This document shows, in pieces, positions 6,482 through 28,323 of a DNA stretch of 28,364 nucleotides. The DNA lies in IMG/VR virus record IMGVR_UViG_3300028559_000150, positions 1 through 28,364 of that record, one strand, 5' to 3'. The notes under the pieces are model-generated. The model made no database searches, had not been told where the DNA came from, and worked only from the letters and a program-made list of their open reading frames with translations. Source of the DNA: a virus. A program made the translations under genes and the position numbers. Within the stretch, counting starts at the first letter, position 1. Every line of letters starts with the position of its first letter.

Positions 6482-6772
6482 ATGGATATTGAAGAGATGT
6501 GTGAAATTCTAGAAGAGTTTTCAAGAGAGTTTACAAATGGAAATTTAAATAGAGATTTTTTTACAGGGTTTTTAATTTACAATGACCTCGGACTACCATT
6601 GGCACAAGCGTATCATTATGACCTTGCAGAACTCACAGAAGAGGGAGAAACTCTCGTCATAGAAACCTGGGAGGAATTCTGCAGATGCCTAGCAATAGAC
6701 TCAGATGAGCCCTATGAAGACCTTAACGATTGTCTTTTCTCCTCAGAGGTATATCTACAGTCAAATGAATAA
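6482..6772 (+). CDS. Acidic hypothetical protein
   Basis: 96 aa from ATG 6482 (a TTG at 6476 is an alternative, four bases after GGGG). Strongly acidic throughout, with helices DIEEMCEILEEFSREF and ETWEEFCRCLAID. Strong net negative charge suggests an inhibitor or DNA-mimic type protein, but this is only a composition argument. Its 3' end overlaps by 12 bases the 3' end of the convergent isomerase gene, marking the boundary of the minus-strand sugar island. Confidence 0.6.
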   Translation: MDIEEMCEILEEFSREFTNGNLNRDFFTGFLIYNDLGLPLAQAYHYDLAELTEEGETLVIETWEEFCRCLAIDSDEPYEDLNDCLFSSEVYLQSNE

Positions 6773-7474
6773 TGATATATCGTTTTGATAAACCTTCTTT
6801 AAAAAGTTTTCTATTTCTTTATTTAAATCGTATGACTTCATAAATTCATAAGTAACATTTCCATTATATCCAAGATTTTTTATATCAGAAATTATATTTG
6901 CGTATTCTTTATATAAAGTAACTGGCTCAAGATCTGGGGTAGAAATGTGAACATGATAGATATACTCTTTATGTTTTTCAAATTCTACTACAGAATTTAG
7001 TCCTTCTAAATAAAGATTACCACTATCAATCATAGTTTTTATACTGTAAAGAGATTCTATATCATCTACAATTTCATCCAGGGTATAATAATACTCTCCA
7101 CCGTACTTCCTTGCATTTGGTTCAACACAAACAATGCAATCACGCTTATCAATATAGTTGTCAATACGCATAAGAAGATCAAGCATACTCTTTTTGTTTC
7201 CTATACGCATCGATGGAGATCCAAGGGTGATGACCTTTACATTGTTTTCTAAACAATAATCGACCACCTTGCATAGATAATCGTAACAGCTGGAATCAAA
7301 AAAAGATGATATTCCAGATCCGTAGAATACCCCTTGGATAGCATAAACAGATTTTGATAGTGGAGCTTTTATGTAAGCAGATTCGATATAATCAAATCCA
7401 AGATTTAATGCAATCTCTGTGTTTTTAGAAACCATATCTGGTTGCCAACCAATGTTACTTATTCCTACCTGCAT
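6761..7474 (-). CDS. Xylose isomerase-like TIM-barrel sugar isomerase/epimerase
   Basis: 237 aa from the ATG at 7474, preceded by GGAG seven bases upstream. The segments MQVGISNIGW, CIVCVEPNA, TMIDSGN, YIYHVHIS and VTYEFMK give the E, D, H, E metal ligands of the AP-endonuclease-2/xylose isomerase superfamily in order. Members isomerise or epimerise sugars or inositols, or act as AP endonucleases. Here the neighbouring SDR and FAD oxidoreductase indicate sugar chemistry. It is the last gene of a three-gene operon with ATG/stop overlaps. The substrate cannot be told. Confidence 0.8.
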   Translation of the reverse strand: MQVGISNIGWQPDMVSKNTEIALNLGFDYIESAYIKAPLSKSVYAIQGVFYGSGISSFFDSSCYDYLCKVVDYCLENNVKVITLGSPSMRIGNKKSMLDLLMRIDNYIDKRDCIVCVEPNARKYGGEYYYTLDEIVDDIESLYSIKTMIDSGNLYLEGLNSVVEFEKHKEYIYHVHISTPDLEPVTLYKEYANIISDIKNLGYNGNVTYEFMKSYDLNKEIENFLKKVYQNDISLFI

Positions 7475-8205
7475 AAAAATTCTCCTATCTCTTTTAATGA
7501 AGTTTCTGAATCGTACCAATATCTTTTTGTTGTTATATTAGTTTGATAATTATACGCCATAAGCTTTCCTTCATATCCAATAGGTTTGTCACAGAATGTT
7601 TCTACTATTTCCCTGGTACTAACGGGTTCTGGAAATAAATTAAATATTGTTCTATCATCATAGTTAGCTGCCTCAATATCTAATGCGATAAGATTAATGT
7701 TATACCATTGATAGTAAGAGTTTATATTTATTTGATCTAAGTTATTTGAATTCTTAATATCAAATAATATATTCTTTTTTAAATATGGACCGTAAACTCC
7801 TGGCAATCGTAATACTTTTATAGAATTATACTCCAGGTTTTGAGTTATCAAGTCTTCAAAGATATACCTATTGTGACCATACCCTAGGCTTTTAAATACA
7901 GGAGCTATTGTTTCGTCTGCAAGTAACTCAGTATCCTGGTAAACATCAATTGTAGAAAATAAAAATACATTATTATATTTTTTATTTTTTATCTTGGTAA
8001 ATATGCTTATTGCATTTTCTAAATCAAGTCCAGGGTTTTTATTTATTATCCATTTCGTTGCTGGTAGACAGGAAAGATAAAGATCACAACCATCAGGTGC
8101 AGAAGATATTTCGTCAAGGTTTTTAGAATTATATTTATAATCAAAGTTTATAAATCTTTGTAGATTTGTTCCAACAAAACCAGTTGAGCCTACTAAAATT
8201 CGCAT
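7465..8205 (-). CDS. NAD-dependent epimerase/dehydratase (extended SDR)
   Basis: 246 aa. N-terminal MRILVGSTGFVGTNL is the GxxGxxG Rossmann motif. VFLFSTIDVY is the Ser/Thr strand, and the catalytic Tyr region reads YGHNRYIFED, where the usual YxxxK lysine is replaced by Arg, so activity may be altered. LRLPGVYGP matches the extended SDR substrate region. Shorter than the usual 300 or more residues. It overlaps both neighbours by 10-13 bases, implying coordinated expression with the oxidoreductase and isomerase. Likely acts on a nucleotide sugar. Confidence 0.82.
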   Translation of the reverse strand: MRILVGSTGFVGTNLQRFINFDYKYNSKNLDEISSAPDGCDLYLSCLPATKWIINKNPGLDLENAISIFTKIKNKKYNNVFLFSTIDVYQDTELLADETIAPVFKSLGYGHNRYIFEDLITQNLEYNSIKVLRLPGVYGPYLKKNILFDIKNSNNLDQININSYYQWYNINLIALDIEAANYDDRTIFNLFPEPVSTREIVETFCDKPIGYEGKLMAYNYQTNITTKRYWYDSETSLKEIGEFLCR

Positions 8206-9122
8206 AGCTGTCTCACATAATCCTCAAGGTAGTATATCCCCTGTATCTTGCCCCCAAAACAGTTTACAACATTGTTCTCCATTGTAATTACTGGAGATCT
8301 GTTGTCAGACATATCAACTGGCTTTGCCTTTACAGCTCTTAGGCTTTCTTGGTATTTAAACCTTGTACTAAACCCTGGATAGTAATAAGATATTTTATTT
8401 TCAATCTTTTCTATTCTTTCAGAATCGGTAAGATTAGAATCTGGTGTGTATTCAACATCTGAAATTGTAAACATATTTTTATAATATGGAAAGATGGAAA
8501 ACAAAGGTCCATCAACCAATGTCAGGGCATCGAATGGCGTATCGTCAATCTTTTTATATACGAATATTGTGCATGGTTGAACAAAAGACTGATGGGTAAT
8601 GGGGTTGAGAGTGTTGTTTGTACAATTTATAACAAGATCGTAAGACAACGAAAGGCTACCAACATTGTCAATATCTTTTCTAGTCAGCAAATGATCAAGC
8701 TCTCTTATAAAGTATGACTGGGCAAGAAATGGATTTATATGTTTTTCATTCACGGAAATAGCTCCAGAAACATTATTTAAATAGTCATGGTCAGCAATTT
8801 GAAAGTCAAAGTCTGAAAATATTTTAATATAGGTTTTAAAATCAATGATTGATTCCCGTTCTGGCACAGCATAAACATTGTTAGGGACGTTAGATAAAAG
8901 ACTTTCGTAATCTGTTTTAAATTTTATAAAAGTTGTTCTGCACAGAAGTCTTGTTGTAGAGCTTCTTGCATAATGATAACCTAGGTGCAATCTATTTTGA
9001 TTGTTCATAGAAGCTTTACTAAAAATGCCATGCCCATCAAAAATACTAACCTGGTGGCTTTGTTTTAATTTATTTGCAATGTGGCAGCCAAACCATCCTG
9101 CACCAATAATAGCTATCTTCAT
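8193..9122 (-). CDS. FAD-dependent oxidoreductase (DAO-like), sugar cluster
   Basis: 309 aa from ATG 9122. Dinucleotide-binding start MKIAIIGAGWFGCHIANKL followed by a short acidic strand (VSIFDGHG), then SKASMNNQNRLHLGYHYARS, a pattern I associate with DAO-fold oxidoreductases found in lipopolysaccharide or surface-glycan clusters. The C-terminal GGKIQGIYYLEDYV closes the FAD domain. First gene of the minus-strand operon, reading from one arm of a divergent promoter at 9136-9154; the leader is only a few bases. Reaction unknown; oxidation of a sugar or sugar acid is plausible. Confidence 0.75.
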   Translation of the reverse strand: MKIAIIGAGWFGCHIANKLKQSHQVSIFDGHGIFSKASMNNQNRLHLGYHYARSSTTRLLCRTTFIKFKTDYESLLSNVPNNVYAVPERESIIDFKTYIKIFSDFDFQIADHDYLNNVSGAISVNEKHINPFLAQSYFIRELDHLLTRKDIDNVGSLSLSYDLVINCTNNTLNPITHQSFVQPCTIFVYKKIDDTPFDALTLVDGPLFSIFPYYKNMFTISDVEYTPDSNLTDSERIEKIENKISYYYPGFSTRFKYQESLRAVKAKPVDMSDNRSPVITMENNVVNCFGGKIQGIYYLEDYVRQLCEF

Positions 9123-9135
9123 AATAATTAGTAAC

Positions 9136-9154
9136 ATTATATCAGTGATATAAT
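9136..9154. promoter_or_regulatory. Palindromic divergent promoter (two TGATATAAT extended -10s)
   Basis: ATTATATCA, one central G, then TGATATAAT: a perfect 9-bp inverted repeat. Each strand reads TGATATAAT, an extended -10. The minus copy is 13 bases before the oxidoreductase ATG, and the plus copy 20 bases before the glycosyltransferase ATG at 9175. No -35 elements are evident. Polymerases could not occupy both arms at once. Confidence 0.65.
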
Positions 9155-9174
9155 TGTGTAAAAGAAAGAAACTT

Positions 9175-9900
9175 ATGTCTACTGTAATTACTCACATCTA
9201 CAACGAAGAACTATTGCTCCCCCTTTGGTTGGAGCATCATTCAAAATATTTTGATCATGGTATCGTGGTTGATTTTGCATCTACAGATTCTAGTAGGGAA
9301 ATAATTGCTCAATACCCAAAATTTAAAGTGTATGATTCAACAATAGATATGTGGGGTGTAAACGATCTTGATGCCATGATGATTGAATTTGAAAAAAAGG
9401 TAGAGGGAATAAGAATGGTGTTAAATGTAACAGAGTTTCTTCTTGGTGATCCTAATAATGCTAAAAAAGATTTTTTAATTCCTGCAGTTGGCCTTATTAA
9501 TATGCCATTTGATAAAGAATTTGATTGGTCAAAACAATTTTGGGAGCAAAGATCATATGGAATTTCATACAAAGATAGTTTTATTCACAGAAGATCAAGA
9601 ATTCTTGCTCATAAATTACCCAACTACCCGCTTGGCAGACATTTTGAATCAATAGATGATGGCGGATACTTACTTGTTCATGTTGCCAACTGCTTGGTTG
9701 ACGAGAGAATGATTAATAGAAAGCTTCAGTTTCAAGACAAAGTGCCAGACAAAGATAAAAATTTAAACCTAGCTTTTCAACACTATAAACAAGGAAGAAG
9801 ATTTGTAAAAGAGGACGCACTTCAAGAGCAAGAAACTTTTAGATCACAATCAGTAGATGTATCAGACTTAATTAATAAAGCTATTACTACCATGATATAG
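9175..9900 (+). CDS. GT2/GT92-like glycosyltransferase
   Basis: 241 aa. The ATG at 9175 (MSTVITHIYNEE) is preferred to a TTG at 9154, which lies inside the -10. The start HIYNEELLLPLWLEHHSKYF and GIVVDFASTDSSREII are the first Rossmann half of GT-A enzymes, with the donor-site region near VNDLDAMMIEFE and LNVTEFLLGD. Families with this opening are found in polysaccharide clusters and often annotated glycosyltransferase family 2 or 92. Cytoplasmic, no membrane segment. It is followed eight bases later by the methyltransferase gene. Confidence 0.75.
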   Translation: MSTVITHIYNEELLLPLWLEHHSKYFDHGIVVDFASTDSSREIIAQYPKFKVYDSTIDMWGVNDLDAMMIEFEKKVEGIRMVLNVTEFLLGDPNNAKKDFLIPAVGLINMPFDKEFDWSKQFWEQRSYGISYKDSFIHRRSRILAHKLPNYPLGRHFESIDDGGYLLVHVANCLVDERMINRKLQFQDKVPDKDKNLNLAFQHYKQGRRFVKEDALQEQETFRSQSVDVSDLINKAITTMI

Positions 9901-9907
9901 GATAAAA

Positions 9908-10522
9908 ATGAAACTACACGATATAGCATTAAAACATGAACTTGCTCACATTGGAGATAAAGCAACATATCATCAATACATGCATTTTTATGAAAAGCAT
10001 CTTGATCCAGAAAATATATCTAGATTTTTAGAAATAGGTATAGCTTATGGCGCATCAATACGAACATGGCGAGAGTGGCTTCCTGAAAAAGTTATTGTTG
10101 AAGGGTGGGACATAAATCCAGCGCAAGATATTGAAGGCTGTGACTTAAGAGTTGTGGATCAATTAGATACCCAAGCCATGCTTGATAACATAACTGGAAC
10201 TTATGATGTGATATTAGATGATGGCGGCCACACTGCTGACATGATGCAAACATCATTTGCCACTCTTTTTCCACACACTCGCTTATATATTATTGAAGAT
10301 CTTCAAGCTCCATGGTATGGAGAACATTATCTTAGTCCAGGAGACATTAATACACTAGACATGCTTGAAAACTTTGATATAGATGGCTGGACTTCAAGGT
10401 ATGCAACTGAAGATCAAAAAGTTTATATTAATGAGAATGCCCAAATTGTTGATATCTTTATTCGTGGAGAAAGAAATAGTCCACTTTCTGCAACATGCAT
10501 TATTAAAAATAGAGCAAATTAA
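9908..10522 (+). CDS. Class I SAM methyltransferase, MycE-like O-methyltransferase
   Basis: 204 aa, AGGATAAAA before the ATG. SAM-binding motif FLEIGIAYGASIRTW, acidic loop VEGWDINPA, then YDVILDDGGHTADMMQ and LYIIEDLQAPWYG. The DDGGH and YxIEDL motifs match sugar O-methyltransferases such as the MycE family (metal-dependent, acting on deoxysugars of macrolides). With the glycosyltransferase just upstream, methylation of a transferred sugar is the natural guess. The stop is only three bases from the convergent gene at 10526. Confidence 0.75.
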   Translation: MKLHDIALKHELAHIGDKATYHQYMHFYEKHLDPENISRFLEIGIAYGASIRTWREWLPEKVIVEGWDINPAQDIEGCDLRVVDQLDTQAMLDNITGTYDVILDDGGHTADMMQTSFATLFPHTRLYIIEDLQAPWYGEHYLSPGDINTLDMLENFDIDGWTSRYATEDQKVYINENAQIVDIFIRGERNSPLSATCIIKNRAN

Positions 10523-10525
10523 ACA

Positions 10526-11203
10526 TTACCATTCAGTAATAATTTCATTGTGATGCTCTGTTTCTGGTCCAGCAAGGTCATATACTTGAACCCCTGGTAT
10601 CTGTCCAATCCAGACTTCAGCATCCCATCTCGTTTGCATCGTTGGGCCATGACCAATTTCTCTTATTTTGTTTAATTTAGACCACCAGAAGGTTCCAGCA
10701 AACCATCGTTGTCCAACGTGTGGACCGCCAAGGTGGGGCGGGGACTGACCACTAAAGTCATGCCAATGACAACCAACTGCATCAACATCAGAGAGTTTTT
10801 CAATGCAATCTTTCCACTTAATAACATTAAAATATGTCATTGACTTTCTCCAATTAATGTTTTGTTCCGTGACATTGAATCCGCCCTTTGTATGTGCATA
10901 CAAGACGTTCCCATCATTAACTTGTGCAAATTCATATAGTTTATTTTGAGTAAGCTGTTCCCATCCATGATCAGCCTCGTCAACAACTGTGTGTGAAATA
11001 TTATTTTCGGATAAAAAGTCTTTAACTTGTTGTCTTTGGTGTGGCAACCCAACTAATCCAATATGAATTGTATCTAAATTATTAATCAATTGGCTCGTTT
11101 TTAATGATTCTATATGAAGCTGGACTATAGGTATCCAATCGTTTTCTTTTTGAGAGGCATTGCTTCCACAATAAATATGGTAAAAATGATGCATGTCTAC
11201 CAT
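10526..11203 (-). CDS. Glycosyltransferase-like protein (cell-surface cluster family), copy 1
   Basis: 225 aa. Shared landmarks with its upstream neighbour: an opening HHFYHIYC, GLVGLPHQRQQVKDFL, ADHGWEQLTQNKLYEFA, LYAHTKGG, INWRKSMTYFNVIKW, GTFWWSKL and DAEVWIG. I have seen this YAHTKG / WRxSMTY / FWW combination in proteins of surface polysaccharide clusters, where they are treated as glycosyltransferases; the biochemical activity is not proven. The ATG lies inside the stop region of the upstream copy (ATGGTAG), so the pair is translationally coupled and probably arose by tandem duplication. Confidence 0.65.
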   Translation of the reverse strand: MVDMHHFYHIYCGSNASQKENDWIPIVQLHIESLKTSQLINNLDTIHIGLVGLPHQRQQVKDFLSENNISHTVVDEADHGWEQLTQNKLYEFAQVNDGNVLYAHTKGGFNVTEQNINWRKSMTYFNVIKWKDCIEKLSDVDAVGCHWHDFSGQSPPHLGGPHVGQRWFAGTFWWSKLNKIREIGHGPTMQTRWDAEVWIGQIPGVQVYDLAGPETEHHNEIITEW

Positions 11204-11862
11204 ATTGTTACCATTTTAGACTCATCCGATGGATGGTAAGGAACGTAATCGTATATTTTAAATGGTTCATCCATTTGCTCAACTGTTGGCTTTAGCCATC
11301 CTATCCAACCCTCTGCTCCATATCTATTTTCTCTATTTGGTTTCTCAGCAAAATTTCTAACATATTTTAATTTAGTCCACCAAAATGTTCCACCAAAGAA
11401 TCCAGAAACTGTTTTAACATTATCATTGCTGCCTTCTAAATAATGAGATCCTACTGCACAAAATCCTTCATCTAAATGTTTTACAACATCTTCCCATATT
11501 ATTACTGTGTGATAAGTCATTGACTTTCGCCAATTTATGTGTAAAGAGTTAATCGTAACAGCATTTTTTGTATGGGCATACAAAACGTATCCGTCATTAT
11601 TTTGTGCAAATTCAAAAAGTTTATCTTGAGTTTCTTGTTCCCACCCGTCATCAACCTCTGAACAAACAGAATAGTTTATTCCTTCAGAGTTGAGATAGTT
11701 CTTAACTTCTTGTCTTGTTTCAGGAGGACCAACGATTCCAATTTGAAATGTTTTAAGATTGTTGATTAGGTCCGAATGCTTTAGGGCAGCTAGATGTTCG
11801 TTTAGTGGCAATTGCCAGGAGCCTTTAGAGTAGACATGATAAAAATGATGAAGATCTGTCAC
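11197..11862 (-). CDS. Glycosyltransferase-like protein, copy 2 (paralogue)
   Basis: 221 aa, GTG start nine bases after the extended -10 at 11872-11880, so nearly leaderless. It has the same order of motifs as copy 1 (HHFYHVYS, GIVGPPETRQEVKNYL, DDGWEQETQDKLFEFA, LYAHTKNA, INWRKSMTYHTVIIW, GTFWWTKL, GAEGWIG). The DAEVWIG of copy 1 is GAEGWIG here, so the aspartate in this motif differs. Divergent from the HNH-like gene at 11926. Confidence 0.65.
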   Translation of the reverse strand: MTDLHHFYHVYSKGSWQLPLNEHLAALKHSDLINNLKTFQIGIVGPPETRQEVKNYLNSEGINYSVCSEVDDGWEQETQDKLFEFAQNNDGYVLYAHTKNAVTINSLHINWRKSMTYHTVIIWEDVVKHLDEGFCAVGSHYLEGSNDNVKTVSGFFGGTFWWTKLKYVRNFAEKPNRENRYGAEGWIGWLKPTVEQMDEPFKIYDYVPYHPSDESKMVTIW

Positions 11863-13953: not shown

Positions 13954-14991
13954 GTGATTGAGTATGACAAAAAGGCATTATGCTTTGATGACATTCTTTT
14001 AGTCCCCCAGTACGGTACAATCCCATCTCGTCACGATGTAGATCTTAGTATGGCAATTGGTAAAAAAGATAAAAAAATTATAAATTTAACCCTACCCGTC
14101 ATTGCCGCACCTATGGATACCGTGTGCGACATAGACATGTGCTTGGCTATTGCCGATGCTGGAGGCATGGGAATAGTACATAGATACATGCCCTATGATT
14201 CTCAAGTAAACCGGGCTAAGAAACTTTCAAAATATAATATAAACTTTGGAATAGCTATTGCATCTAATAATGGATTCATTGATCATGCAAAGAGTTTGTA
14301 TGATGTTGGTGTTAGGGTCATGTTAATTGATACCGCCAATGGTCACTCTGAACAAGCGATAAAGGCTGTTAGGGCAATTAAAAAATTATACAATGATGTT
14401 CATGTCATGGCTGGAAATGTTGCAACGGCAGAGGGATTTTATCGACTTGCCAATGCTGGCGCAGATTCAGTTAGGGTGGGCATTGGTGGTGGCAGTGCTT
14501 GTACTACACGCTTGGTTAGTGGTCATGGAATTCCAACATTGGCATCAATACTAGAGATTGCAAATTCAAACTATTATAATCTTAATTGCACAGTGATTGC
14601 CGATGGTGGTATTCGTAATAGTGGAGACATGGTTAAGGCATTTGCCGCAGGAGCAGGTGCCGTCATGGTTGGGTCAATGCTTGCTGGCACCAATGAGGCC
14701 CCTGGTGAAATACTTACAGATGCTAGCGGAAGAGAGTTCAAGACGTTCCGTGGAATGGCCTCAGAAGGCGCACAGAAGGACGCTACAGGCAAAACGTCAG
14801 TGGCAGAAGGTATATCGACCACAATACCCTACAGAGGCTCTGTGAGCCATATACTTAATCAGATAAAAGGTGGACTTGGAAGCGGCTGCTCTTACTCTGG
14901 AGTAGATAGCTTAAAAGACTTGCATTCTGAATCGCAGTATGTTAAGGTTAGCTCATTAAGTATTAATGAATCAAGACCACACGCACTATAA
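13954..14991 (+). CDS. IMP dehydrogenase/GMP reductase-type enzyme without CBS domains
   Basis: 345 aa TIM barrel, GTG start. [53 protein letters not shown], the cysteine loop [19 protein letters not shown] (Cys183), [12 protein letters not shown] and FRGMASEG follow the IMPDH/GMPR order exactly. The usual PGS of the loop is GGS. The CBS module normally inserted around residue 110 is absent, as in GMPR and some IMPDHs; the C-terminal NESRPHAL recalls IMPDH (ESHPHD). It would alter purine pools for phage DNA synthesis or modification. Oxidase versus reductase direction is not settled from sequence. Confidence 0.88.
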
Positions 14992-19208: not shown

Positions 19209-19457
19209 ATTGGTCTACTCGATGAAGGTCAAGCCACGCCTGCCCCTGCTGAGGGATACGCAGCACCGTACGACCTCCCTGAAATAACGGGTGAATCGGA
19301 GTTCCATCGGCATTTGGAGATAATCCTGGCAAATGAGTTCAGACGATTAAACCATCTTTACCCCGTTTTTTACAAATATAATAGAAAATGGGTTATTTGT
19401 CATGTCTGGATGTTTTATTATAAATATATTTTGGGTAAATATATCATTCAATCGTAA
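19209..19457 (+). CDS. Open frame with only a possible ATT start (82 codons)
   Basis: Open from TTA TTA TGT upstream through to a TAA at 19455-19457, with no in-frame ATG, GTG or TTG at its 5' end. From ATT at 19209 (AAAAGG about six bases upstream) it reads IGLLDEGQATPAPAEGYAAP then YDLPEITGESEFHRHLEIIL, ANEFRRLNHLYP and an aromatic hydrophobic end. The codon choice is GC-rich and protein-like in its first 50 residues, unlike the gap before it. Options are a rare AUU-initiated gene, a gene broken by a single-base shift after the ATG at 19190, or a structured RNA. The stop lies within the TCGTAA of a repeat box. Confidence 0.3.
   Translation: MGLLDEGQATPAPAEGYAAPYDLPEITGESEFHRHLEIILANEFRRLNHLYPVFYKYNRKWVICHVWMFYYKYILGKYIIQS
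19433..19457 (+). repeat. Phased box 1 (GGGTAA-N14-CGTAA), no GC dyad
   Basis: GGGTAA at 19433-19438 and CGTAA at 19453-19457, offset exactly 20. It lies just past the stop of the Ntn-hydrolase gene. First of ten boxes. This copy lacks the GC dyad. Confidence 0.65.
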
Positions 19458-19459
19458 TC

Positions 19460-19996
19460 TTATTTTGATACCAGGGTATTTAGTATATCTATTGGTCCCT
19501 TGCATGTTGGAGAGTATTCTATAGCAGCTTGTATGGATAATTTTATTCTATCTACCGGGGGTAAATGAGAAGAACTATATAAAGATCCCATTGCATACCC
19601 TGATCCTGATCCTATTGAAACCATATCATATTCAACACATTGAAAATCTGTTGTGTCTATTTCATAGACATGACCTTTTATACCCACAATAAATCCACCA
19701 TGATCTTCTTCTGATTCCGGTAATTTTATTTCCTTATCTTTAAAGAAGGTTCGTAATAATGGAATAAATACCTGGCCCATATGCTTATCTATATTAACAA
19801 TCTTTGCAGGCGGGAATTCAAAATTATATTTAATAGCTTGTCCCATTCCACTATTACCAGAATACCCAAAGACATATAAACCATGAGAAGATATCTTTGG
19901 CTGAGAAGAAGCTAATATATTATGAGAGTCACTATGTCCTCTTTCTCCCCCCATATAGACATTTCCCTTATCAACCAGGGCAGCTATGCAAGTCAT
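19460..19996 (-). CDS. HslV/proteasome-like Ntn hydrolase (N-terminal threonine peptidase)
   Basis: 178 aa from ATG 19996, which overlaps the stop of the upstream membrane peptide (ATGA); an ATG at 20056 has its GGAGG with no spacing and would bury the catalytic residue. Removing Met exposes Thr1: TCIAALVDKGNVYMGGERG. Counting from Thr1, Glu17 stands where proteasomes have Asp17, and Lys33 falls exactly on the catalytic lysine (QPKISSHGLYVFGYSG). VSIGSGSGYAMGSLYSS matches the conserved GSG-xYAxG motif before the C-terminal helices. At about 177 residues it is HslV-sized. No HslU or other unfoldase gene is visible, so it may be a stand-alone or host-ATPase-using peptidase, or act on a phage protein. 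Confidence 0.82.
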   Translation of the reverse strand: MTCIAALVDKGNVYMGGERGHSDSHNILASSQPKISSHGLYVFGYSGNSGMGQAIKYNFEFPPAKIVNIDKHMGQVFIPLLRTFFKDKEIKLPESEEDHGGFIVGIKGHVYEIDTTDFQCVEYDMVSIGSGSGYAMGSLYSSSHLPPVDRIKLSIQAAIEYSPTCKGPIDILNTLVSK

Positions 19997-20097
19997 GAAA
20001 AAATCCAGGAAGCAAGCAAAATGCAAGCGGTACAAATAGAAATACTTAAAATACATCCTCCAACAAGGGTAGTAATAAGATCTTCTCCTTTATTCAT
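19993..20097 (-). CDS. 34-residue membrane peptide upstream of the Ntn hydrolase
   Basis: ATG 20097 with a strong ribosome site AGGAGGG. Encodes MNKGEDLITTLVGGCILSIS then ICTACILLASWIFS: a charged N-terminus and one transmembrane helix rich in small residues and cysteine. The TGA overlaps the hydrolase ATG, so the two products are made together, suggesting a membrane partner or an anchor for it. The longer 103-codon frame upstream runs through the repeat region and is not believed. Confidence 0.6.
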   Translation of the reverse strand: MNKGEDLITTLVGGCILSISICTACILLASWIFS

Positions 20098-20107
20098 ATT
20101 CCCTCCT

Positions 20108-20136
20108 ATTATATCAACAATATGGATTTCGGGTAA
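20108..20136 (-). promoter_or_regulatory. Minus-strand promoter whose -35 is a repeat half-site
   Basis: On the minus strand TTACCC (20136-20131), 17 bases, TATAAT (20113-20108), with TG ahead of it (TGATATAAT). The -35 position is occupied by the GGGTAA half-site of the phased box, so a box-binding protein would compete with or help polymerase. The -10 lies very close to the ribosome site. Confidence 0.5.
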
Positions 20137-20155
20137 AAATATCTTTCCTTCGTAA
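20131..20155 (+). repeat. Phased box 2 (GGGTAA-N14-CGTAA), no GC dyad
   Basis: GGGTAA at 20131 and CGTAA at 20151. It is immediately followed by box 3, making this the only tandem pair, placed in front of the Ntn-hydrolase operon. Confidence 0.7.
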
Positions 20156-20164
20156 TCATATTTC

Positions 20165-20212
20165 CGGTAAAAAATATATTGGTTCGTAAAATGTTTTATG
20201 TGGGAGCGCTCC
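20165..20212 (+). repeat. Phased box 3 with dyad (CGGTAA-N14-CGTAA, GGAGCGCTCC)
   Basis: CGGTAA at 20165, CGTAA at 20185, dyad GGAGCGCTCC at 20203-20212 centred 18 bases after CGTAA. The dyad differs from the usual GGGGCGCCCC yet keeps perfect symmetry, so compensating changes on both sides have preserved the palindrome. Confidence 0.7.
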
Positions 20213-20242
20213 GCCCGGCCTGCGGAGCTATTCCATGATTGG

Positions 20243-20280
20243 CCCCCGCCCCCTAGCCTCATACAGCCAGGGGACGGGGG
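20243..20280 (-). terminator. Strong GC hairpin after the 20288 gene
   Basis: Arms 20243-20254 and 20269-20280 pair over 12 positions (11 matches plus one G-U) around a 14-base loop, just beyond the stop of the minus-strand gene at 20288. There is no T-run after it, so it is not a textbook intrinsic terminator; it may block read-through or protect the 3' end. Confidence 0.5.
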
Positions 20281-20287
20281 AGACAAA

Positions 20288-20545
20288 TCAGTGAATAACA
20301 CCATCTACAAAATAATCTGAACTATATGGATCAAATGCTAATTGCTCTGCTGGAATGTTTACTCCATATTTTTCTATGTTGTGTTGTATTCCATCTGCAA
20401 AGTTCTTTGCATTTATTACTACCGTGATCGGCTGCTGAACAATGAACAGAGGTACTGCGTACTTCCATTCACTAGGCAGAACACGGTTGTCTGAGAATAA
20501 CTTTACAAACTTGTCTGACAGTTGTTGCGTATTGACCCACGCCAT
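20288..20545 (-). CDS. Hypothetical protein (85 aa)
   Basis: ATG 20545 with GGAGG seven bases upstream. Helical start (VNTQQLSDKFVKLFSDNRVL), strands PLFIVQQPITVVINAKNFAD and an acidic end. No family recognised. Second gene behind the promoter at 20792-20820. Confidence 0.6.
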   Translation of the reverse strand: MAWVNTQQLSDKFVKLFSDNRVLPSEWKYAVPLFIVQQPITVVINAKNFADGIQHNIEKYGVNIPAEQLAFDPYSSDYFVDGVIH

Positions 20546-20791: not shown

Positions 20792-20820
20792 ATTATACGG
20801 GATAAATCAACTATTGTCAA
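20792..20820 (-). promoter_or_regulatory. Consensus sigma-A promoter TTGACA-N17-TATAAT
   Basis: Minus strand: TTGACA (20820-20815), 17 bases, TATAAT (20797-20792), a perfect match to the vegetative consensus. It drives the 51-aa and 85-aa genes. No phased box accompanies it, unlike most minus-strand promoters in this arm. Confidence 0.85.
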
Positions 20821-28275: not shown

Positions 28276-28323
28276 CGGGGGTTTTATAACGTCTTCGTAA
28301 CGAATGGTTTTGAGCGGGCGCCC
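28276..28323 (+). repeat. Phased box 10 with GC dyad (GGGG type)
   Basis: CGGGGG at 28276, CGTAA at 28296, dyad GGGCGCCC at 28316-28323 centred 19 bases on. Near the window edge; hairpin-forming CCTT-TGCG-AAGG sequence follows. Confidence 0.75.

Follow-up and report, generated by a model that had tools for sequence, protein, structure and literature searches.

The viral DNA analysed here, a stretch of 28,364 nucleotides (hereafter the window), probably encodes a catalytically competent N-terminal-threonine hydrolase with the proteasome fold, a compact, AAH-like member of group I that would act early in infection and without a dedicated unfoldase. This reading draws on the sequence of the protein, its predicted fold, the conservation of its catalytic positions, its family membership and the repeat-flanked minus-strand array that contains its gene; from these we infer activity. 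The gene and the short reading frame before it are laid out as follows.

19460..19996, minus strand: proteasome-like (Ntn) hydrolase gene, 178 aa, with mature Thr1, Glu17, Lys33, Gly46 and Ser129 (translation, phrog_1040, AF2, Foldseek/VIA-align)
19993..20097, minus strand: 34-aa open reading frame with one hydrophobic helix, translation MNKGEDLITTLVGGCILSISICTACILLASWIFS; its stop (TGA) and the hydrolase start (ATG) share bases as ATGA
20101..20107, minus strand: AGGAGGG, resembling a ribosome site, just before the ATG of the 34-aa frame (sequence)

The reading frame 19460..20056 on the minus strand is open over its full length. Read from the ATG at 19996, the product is MTCIAALVDKGNVYMGGERGH...QPKISS...SIGSGSGYAMGSL (178 aa), which begins with Met-Thr and has, in mature numbering, Thr1, Cys2, Glu17, Lys33 and Ser129-Gly130, together with a GSGSGYAMG segment. 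The translation thus confirms what the initial annotation had read from the letters, namely Thr after Met, Glu at 17, Lys at 33 and GSGSGYAMG. All 13 aligned cultured-phage relatives (L002–L014) start, with ATG or TTG, directly before Thr and in the same column as the hydrolase, while a start at 20056 would add 20 residues to which nothing corresponds at the N-termini of the aligned relatives. Because the aligned relatives begin at the same Met-Thr, we place the start at 19996 and not at 20056, so that the start first chosen now has the backing of homology from 13 of 13 cultured-phage relatives; relatives on viral contigs agree, the N-terminus being part of the pattern by which they were sought. 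GC content is 0.22 at third codon positions as against 0.46 at first positions, which is what a translated gene of low GC would show.

The hydrolase is a further member of an already known phage family, not a new kind of protein. The profile phrog_1040 (‘peptidase HslV family’) matches it over its whole length (residues 1–173, E 4.4e-18); run over whole genomes, this profile picks up the E. coli, B. subtilis and archaeal controls too, and so is unspecific for phage genes. With the hydrolase as tblastn query, 175 of 50,697 phage records matched at E ≤ 1 (best E 4e-22), and in 163 the match spanned 80% or more of the query. The top relative was in Vibrio phage phiTY18 (36.5% identity), and many others were in T5-like phages of Salmonella and E. 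coli, with Vibrio and Aeromonas phages also represented; the 40 best cultured-phage places listed were 25.7–36.5% identical to the hydrolase. Many of these genes already carry the annotation ‘peptidase HslV family’, ‘proteasome subunit’ or ‘protease’. Relatives in bacterial genomes (49 loci in a scan with the pattern MTCI[VA]GLV and a second one) came mostly from Azospirillum and other alpha-proteobacteria, with a few from Bacillaceae; none of the 49 record titles names an actinobacterium, which says little for a scan limited to two patterns.

General models of the superfamily respond more weakly. The Pfam Proteasome model (PF00227), which had been proposed as a check, does match (E 0.013), but at 15.6 bits it stays below the gathering cut-off of 22.4 bits, and E ≤ 1e-3 was reached by just 5 of 75 family members. 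In NCBIfam the curated HslV model gave no match to the hydrolase; TIGR03690 (proteasome beta) alone responded, below threshold (E 0.061). Comparison at the level of profiles went further: hhalign of the family against E. coli HslV aligned Met-Thr with Met-Thr1, Glu17 with Asp17 and Lys33 with Lys33, and an hmmsearch of PDB sequences with the family profile found BPH (2e-9) and HslV (1.6e-8), as well as actinobacterial proteasome beta chains. Judged by the phrog_1040 and tblastn matches and by the hhalign result, the likeness to the proteasome/HslV family is beyond chance.

In Aeromonas phage 4L372XY (L210:2501-3897), two different proteasome homologs, gp205 and gp206, stand in tandem, both annotated ‘peptidase HslV family’. 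One is AAH-like; the second has 275 aa, a C-terminal extension and the N-terminus VTTIAYKNG. The two possibly constitute a two-subunit system.

An AlphaFold2 model of the hydrolase, made with 74 relatives, reached a pLDDT of 95.1 and a pTM of 0.90. Foldseek against the PDB returned BPH first (5ovt, E 6e-11, TM 0.79) and then HslV (6kui). VIA-align gave Z 20.5 for BPH 5ovs (rmsd 2.7, 168 aligned) and Z 20.1 for HslV 6kui (rmsd 2.7, 161 aligned), a tie, since rows within one Z unit are counted as equal; among the matches listed, 50 of 50 rows were proteasome, HslV or BPH, which says nothing on other families. In the structural alignments, the hydrolase shared 13–20% identity with proteasome and HslV chains. 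In a library of viral structures the top match had a TM of 0.89 to the model, and an uncharacterised protein of Gordonia phage Daredevil was among the matches. The model contains helices 49–58 and 69–87, has no helix before residue 49, and ends in a strand (169–173) followed by a short tail. The predicted structure is of the alpha-beta-beta-alpha type with an N-terminal nucleophile strand, as in proteasome, HslV and BPH. The proposal of an Ntn proteasome fold, for which structure prediction and a Foldseek search had been suggested, is thereby upheld (pLDDT 95.1; Z about 20 to BPH and HslV).

Conservation was assessed in 152 aligned sequences, 88 of which were non-redundant after thinning at 80% identity; L015 (frame start off the conserved column), L084 (a duplicate of L004) and the five fragments L154, L155, L156, L158 and L159 were dropped before counting. 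Lys33 is present in 88 of 88 non-redundant relatives, and position 17 is an acid in all 88 (Asp 85, Glu 3), both positions lying outside the patterns used to search the viral contigs. Thr1 is likewise found in 88 of 88, but it was in the viral-contig search pattern, which contained MTCI and so biases the viral-contig counts of both Thr1 and Cys2. In the cultured-phage rows, found by tblastn and unbiased in this respect, Thr1, Asp17 and Lys33 are each present in 13 of 13 and Cys2 in 11 of 13. Arg49 is found in 80 of 88 relatives and is Gly in the hydrolase of the window; Gly46, which corresponds to the oxyanion-hole glycine, occurs in 19 of 88. Codon differences between close relatives were mainly synonymous (synonymous versus replacement: 36 versus 10 for L105/L106, 17 versus 6 for L101/L102, 12 versus 1 for L106/L134 and 9 versus 4 for L096/L098), and on these counts the close relatives look to be under purifying selection.

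Of the residues that mark proteasome-fold Ntn hydrolases, the window protein thus has Thr1 and Lys33, and Glu in place of Asp17. The exchange is conservative but moves the carboxylate, which calls for caution on activity. Glu17 occurs in 7 of the 152 aligned sequences (the window protein, L096–L100 and L103), all in one clade; the fragment L159, outside the counts, also has it. L096–L100 are ∼50% identical to the window protein. In a tree that took in 13 of the 49 bacterial-genome loci, left out the long or deviant rows L009, L010, L011, L013, L014 and L153, and whose bootstrap had not settled, the window protein pairs with L096 (support 100/97); the sister of this pair is L103 with L101 and L105 (100/97), and L104 lies outside these five in a clade of six (99/83). 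L101, L105 and L104 have Asp17, and by parsimony at least two Asp/Glu changes would have occurred at position 17 within the clade. The initial annotation had called the change a testable oddity; it is real, but it is common to a small clade and not peculiar to the window. Repeated exchange of this kind is the behaviour of a tolerated acid, not of a decaying site. All six members have Gly46, while the five inner sequences have lost Arg49, and because Arg49 is replaced by Gly the substrate pocket of the hydrolase may be different. An actinophage clade in which Asp and Glu appear exchangeable at position 17 is a small surprise, and offers a natural series for probing how strict the threonine-protease triad is. 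In L103 the Glu17 hydrolase is followed by a 275-aa reading frame with a signal-peptide-like start (L103:4751-5578), whose sequence seems reminiscent of subtilisin-type proteases.

The window virus probably infects actinobacteria, as had been surmised. Terminases of Streptomyces phages, among them Daubenski and Yaboi, share 53% identity with that of the window; for the DUF932 protein, identity to gene 4 of Yaboi and its kin is 57%, and the window also has a WhiB gene. L100 shares 67% identity in its portal with Actinomycetia phage DSL-LC01, and L101 shares 54.6% in its terminase with Streptomyces phage Genie2. Because genes of the window, L100 and L101, the three for which host genes were compared, resemble those of actinophages, the Glu17-containing clade is probably an actinophage clade. 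Elsewhere, the window encodes an IMP dehydrogenase/GMP reductase domain protein (13954-14988, plus strand, 345 aa; PF00478, E 2.4e-99), of a kind seldom seen in phages (57 of 50,697 phage records match). It also has an AT-rich block (6764-11862; GC near 0.31 at 7–8.5 kb) with genes for a DAO-type oxidoreductase, an AP-endonuclease-2/xylose-isomerase-like TIM barrel and a methyltransferase, and with weak glycosyltransferase matches; this block may be a sugar-modification cluster.

The hydrolase gene is the last of a minus-strand array of small genes (19.4–24.5 kb). Yaboi gene 4, the counterpart of the DUF932 gene of the array, stands among small minus-strand genes at the left genome end, and direct terminal repeats of ∼11 kb are reported for cluster BE1 Streptomyces phages in PMC5764925. 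Gene position, with the counterpart at a terminal place in its genome, and consensus matches suggest early expression. The elements around the hydrolase unit are these.

20108..20137, minus strand: TTTACC-18-TATAAT, promoter-like match (10/12, extended -10) from a consensus scan in which the number of matches is about that expected by chance
20126..20189, minus strand: two tandem TTACGA-N18-TTTACC units upstream of the hydrolase unit, with TTACGA at 20189 and 20155
19428..19457, minus strand: TTACGA-N18-TTTACC unit directly after the hydrolase stop (motif search)
20241..20277, minus strand: GC-rich hairpin of very high stability, lying between the hydrolase unit and the gene upstream of it (fold of 20200-20300, z -4.84; unique in the window)
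20792..20820, minus strand: perfect TTGACA-17-TATAAT, upstream of the minus-strand genes ahead of the hydrolase unit

The promoter-like match and AGGAGGG can hardly both be used by one transcript, because the match is so close to the ATG. Sites of the TTGACA/TATAAT type with at most one mismatch number 4 in the window as compared with 0.39 expected, and TTACGA or its complement occurs 25 times as compared with 9.4 expected. Between 19428 and 28323 a minus-strand intergenic cassette is repeated, consisting of a GC-rich palindrome (GGGGGCGCCCC type), ∼14 nt, TTACGA, ∼18 nt and ACCCC or ACCGG, and often followed by a TTGACA-like element. Eight copies have the palindrome (TTACGA at 28300, 27986, 26818, 25539, 24576, 23388, 21444 and 20189) and two are without it (20155 and 19457). 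The cassette is possibly a phage operator or promoter module.

In the mechanism that we favour, removal of Met1 would expose Thr1, Glu17 and Lys33 would complete the triad with it, and the oxyanion hole would be served by Gly46. The subunits would probably assemble into rings, as HslV and BPH lead one to expect, and the enzyme, working early in infection and with no unfoldase of its own, would cut peptides, unfolded proteins or a particular host protein. Its gene would be an accessory one, located in the early-gene region of a phage that infects actinobacteria. Tblastn with E. coli HslU and ClpX found no homolog in the window or in 209 other loci (1.71 Mb), the E. coli hslU and clpX controls being recovered; the statement that no unfoldase is encoded nearby therefore holds. 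For this phage the search covered the window alone, 28 kb that are probably part of a larger genome, which could encode an unfoldase elsewhere.

The lack of an unfoldase partner in these loci would also fit a substrate-specific Ntn hydrolase or protein ligase of the connectase kind, working as ring or monomer on a narrow substrate such as a host regulator and not as a general protease. The fold family does include a specific ligase, connectase (PMC8665760), and a clade that has lost Arg49 and keeps Gly46 suggests a changed pocket. Nevertheless, the hallmark of connectase, a pair of helices inserted between strands 3 and 4, is missing from a model that has no helix before residue 49. We reject identity with connectase itself for want of this insertion, and regard the broader idea of a connectase-like specialist as unlikely.

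It had also been suggested that the hydrolase is a membrane-associated peptidase, the 34-aa one-helix peptide recruiting it to the membrane by way of a coupled operon. The overlap of TGA and ATG and the strong ribosome site before the 34-aa frame, on which this suggestion was built, are both seen in the sequence. Since a ribosome-like site stands before the 34-aa frame and none comparable to AGGAGGG before the hydrolase start, translational coupling of the two is likely. A different hydrophobic frame, of 74 aa and unrelated, overlaps the hydrolase start by the same ATGA in L105, L106 and L134 of the sister branch. Gene overlap is, though, a common means of translational coupling, and the peptide, which has no PHROG match, was not found upstream of the closest relatives L096–L100. 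When hydrophobic frames next to the hydrolase were counted at 86 of the 88 non-redundant loci (two were dropped for short flanks; any ATG, GTG or TTG frame of at least 25 aa, some surely spurious), they stood upstream at 13 of 86 and downstream at 11 of 86, which is no signal. Membrane association thus fails as a conserved design, and for the window protein it seems to us a slender prospect. In another clade (L109, L113, L114 and L116, upstream of 4001) the hydrolase is preceded by a conserved frame of ∼105 aa, which begins with a hydrophobic helix and has a long charged portion resembling a coiled coil.

A bolder proposal joins several of these features: an actinophage-specific branch would have rebuilt the catalytic centre, with Glu17 as the working triad acid, exchanging with Asp and followed by Arg18, with Arg49 lost and Gly46 in the oxyanion hole, and with a one-helix peptide bringing the enzyme to membrane substrates, the outcome being a host-takeover protease of narrow range that needs no unfoldase and works in hosts with a proteasome of their own. 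We put this forward as speculation with little chance of being right in full.

A decoy of the actinobacterial proteasome had also been thought possible; such a protein would be a catalytically dead or poisoning subunit of the host 20S proteasome or of HslV, and the Asp17-to-Glu change and the presence of a 20S proteasome in many actinobacteria speak for it. Thr1 and Lys33 are kept, however, the Asp/Glu interchange falls within one supported clade, the structural alignments show little sequence identity with proteasome and HslV chains, and the same catalytic set is found in relatives from phages of Salmonella, E. coli, Vibrio and Aeromonas, where the family is common and whose hosts are not known to have a 20S proteasome. 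Because the catalytic set is kept and relatives occur in phages of such hosts, we consider a decoy very improbable. It is just as hard to credit a non-functional remnant: the gene is accessory and, at this sensitivity, most cultured Streptomyces relatives lack it (Streptomyces phages can make up no more than 2 of the 175 matching records), but its frame is full-length, all catalytic positions are present, its codon composition is that of a translated gene, and its close relatives look to be under purifying selection.

Phage-borne group I proteasome homologs, AAH and PPH, were described by Fuchs et al. in 2021 (PMC8665760). That survey reports AAH from many phages and from none specific to actinobacteria, and it saw no AAA+ partner co-occurring. 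The catalytically competent group I hydrolase proposed here resembles AAH in being compact, with both helix pairs in the predicted model, no C-terminal S12/helix 5 and no AAA+ partner, an assignment that rests on the features described there and not on reference sequences. It differs in having Glu17, in lacking Arg49 and in its occurrence in actinophage-like contigs (the window and two related branches), and the small clade thus fills a gap that the survey had pointed out. We found no functional tests of phage proteasome homologs in the literature, although the homologs are widespread.

PPH/RPC is rejected as an identity, since PPH is given as about 140 residues, with helix H2 missing, in PMC8665760, whereas the hydrolase has 178 residues and both helices 49–58 and 69–87. 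HslV proper is rejected as well, there being no match to the curated HslV model and no HslU homolog in the window; of the HslV label first applied, what stands is membership of group I (HslV/BPH/AAH) by fold and length. BPH (5ovs, 5ovt and 5ovu) and HslV are the best matches among solved structures and share the triad positions, but the hydrolase is only 14–20% identical to them, has no HslU partner in view and has Glu for Asp at 17. The name BPH is also given to g89 of the phage described in PMC8953757. Within PHROG 1040 the hydrolase belongs to the same family as genes of T5-like, Vibrio, Aeromonas, Moorella and Geobacillus phages, at the modest identities given above for the 40 best cultured-phage places listed. 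Cultured actinophages also carry hydrolase-like genes that hhalign matches to the family: Arthrobacter phage Pitbull gp77, annotated ‘protease’ (1.8e-15), and Gordonia phage Daredevil gp62, a ‘hypothetical protein’ (3.7e-11), both with an N-terminal Thr and the Lys of a PK(I/V) motif. They are nevertheless distant (tblastn E 0.03 for Pitbull gp77 with the window protein and 0.8 for Daredevil gp62 with the L101 protein), and in the position-17 column both have Asp, not Glu.
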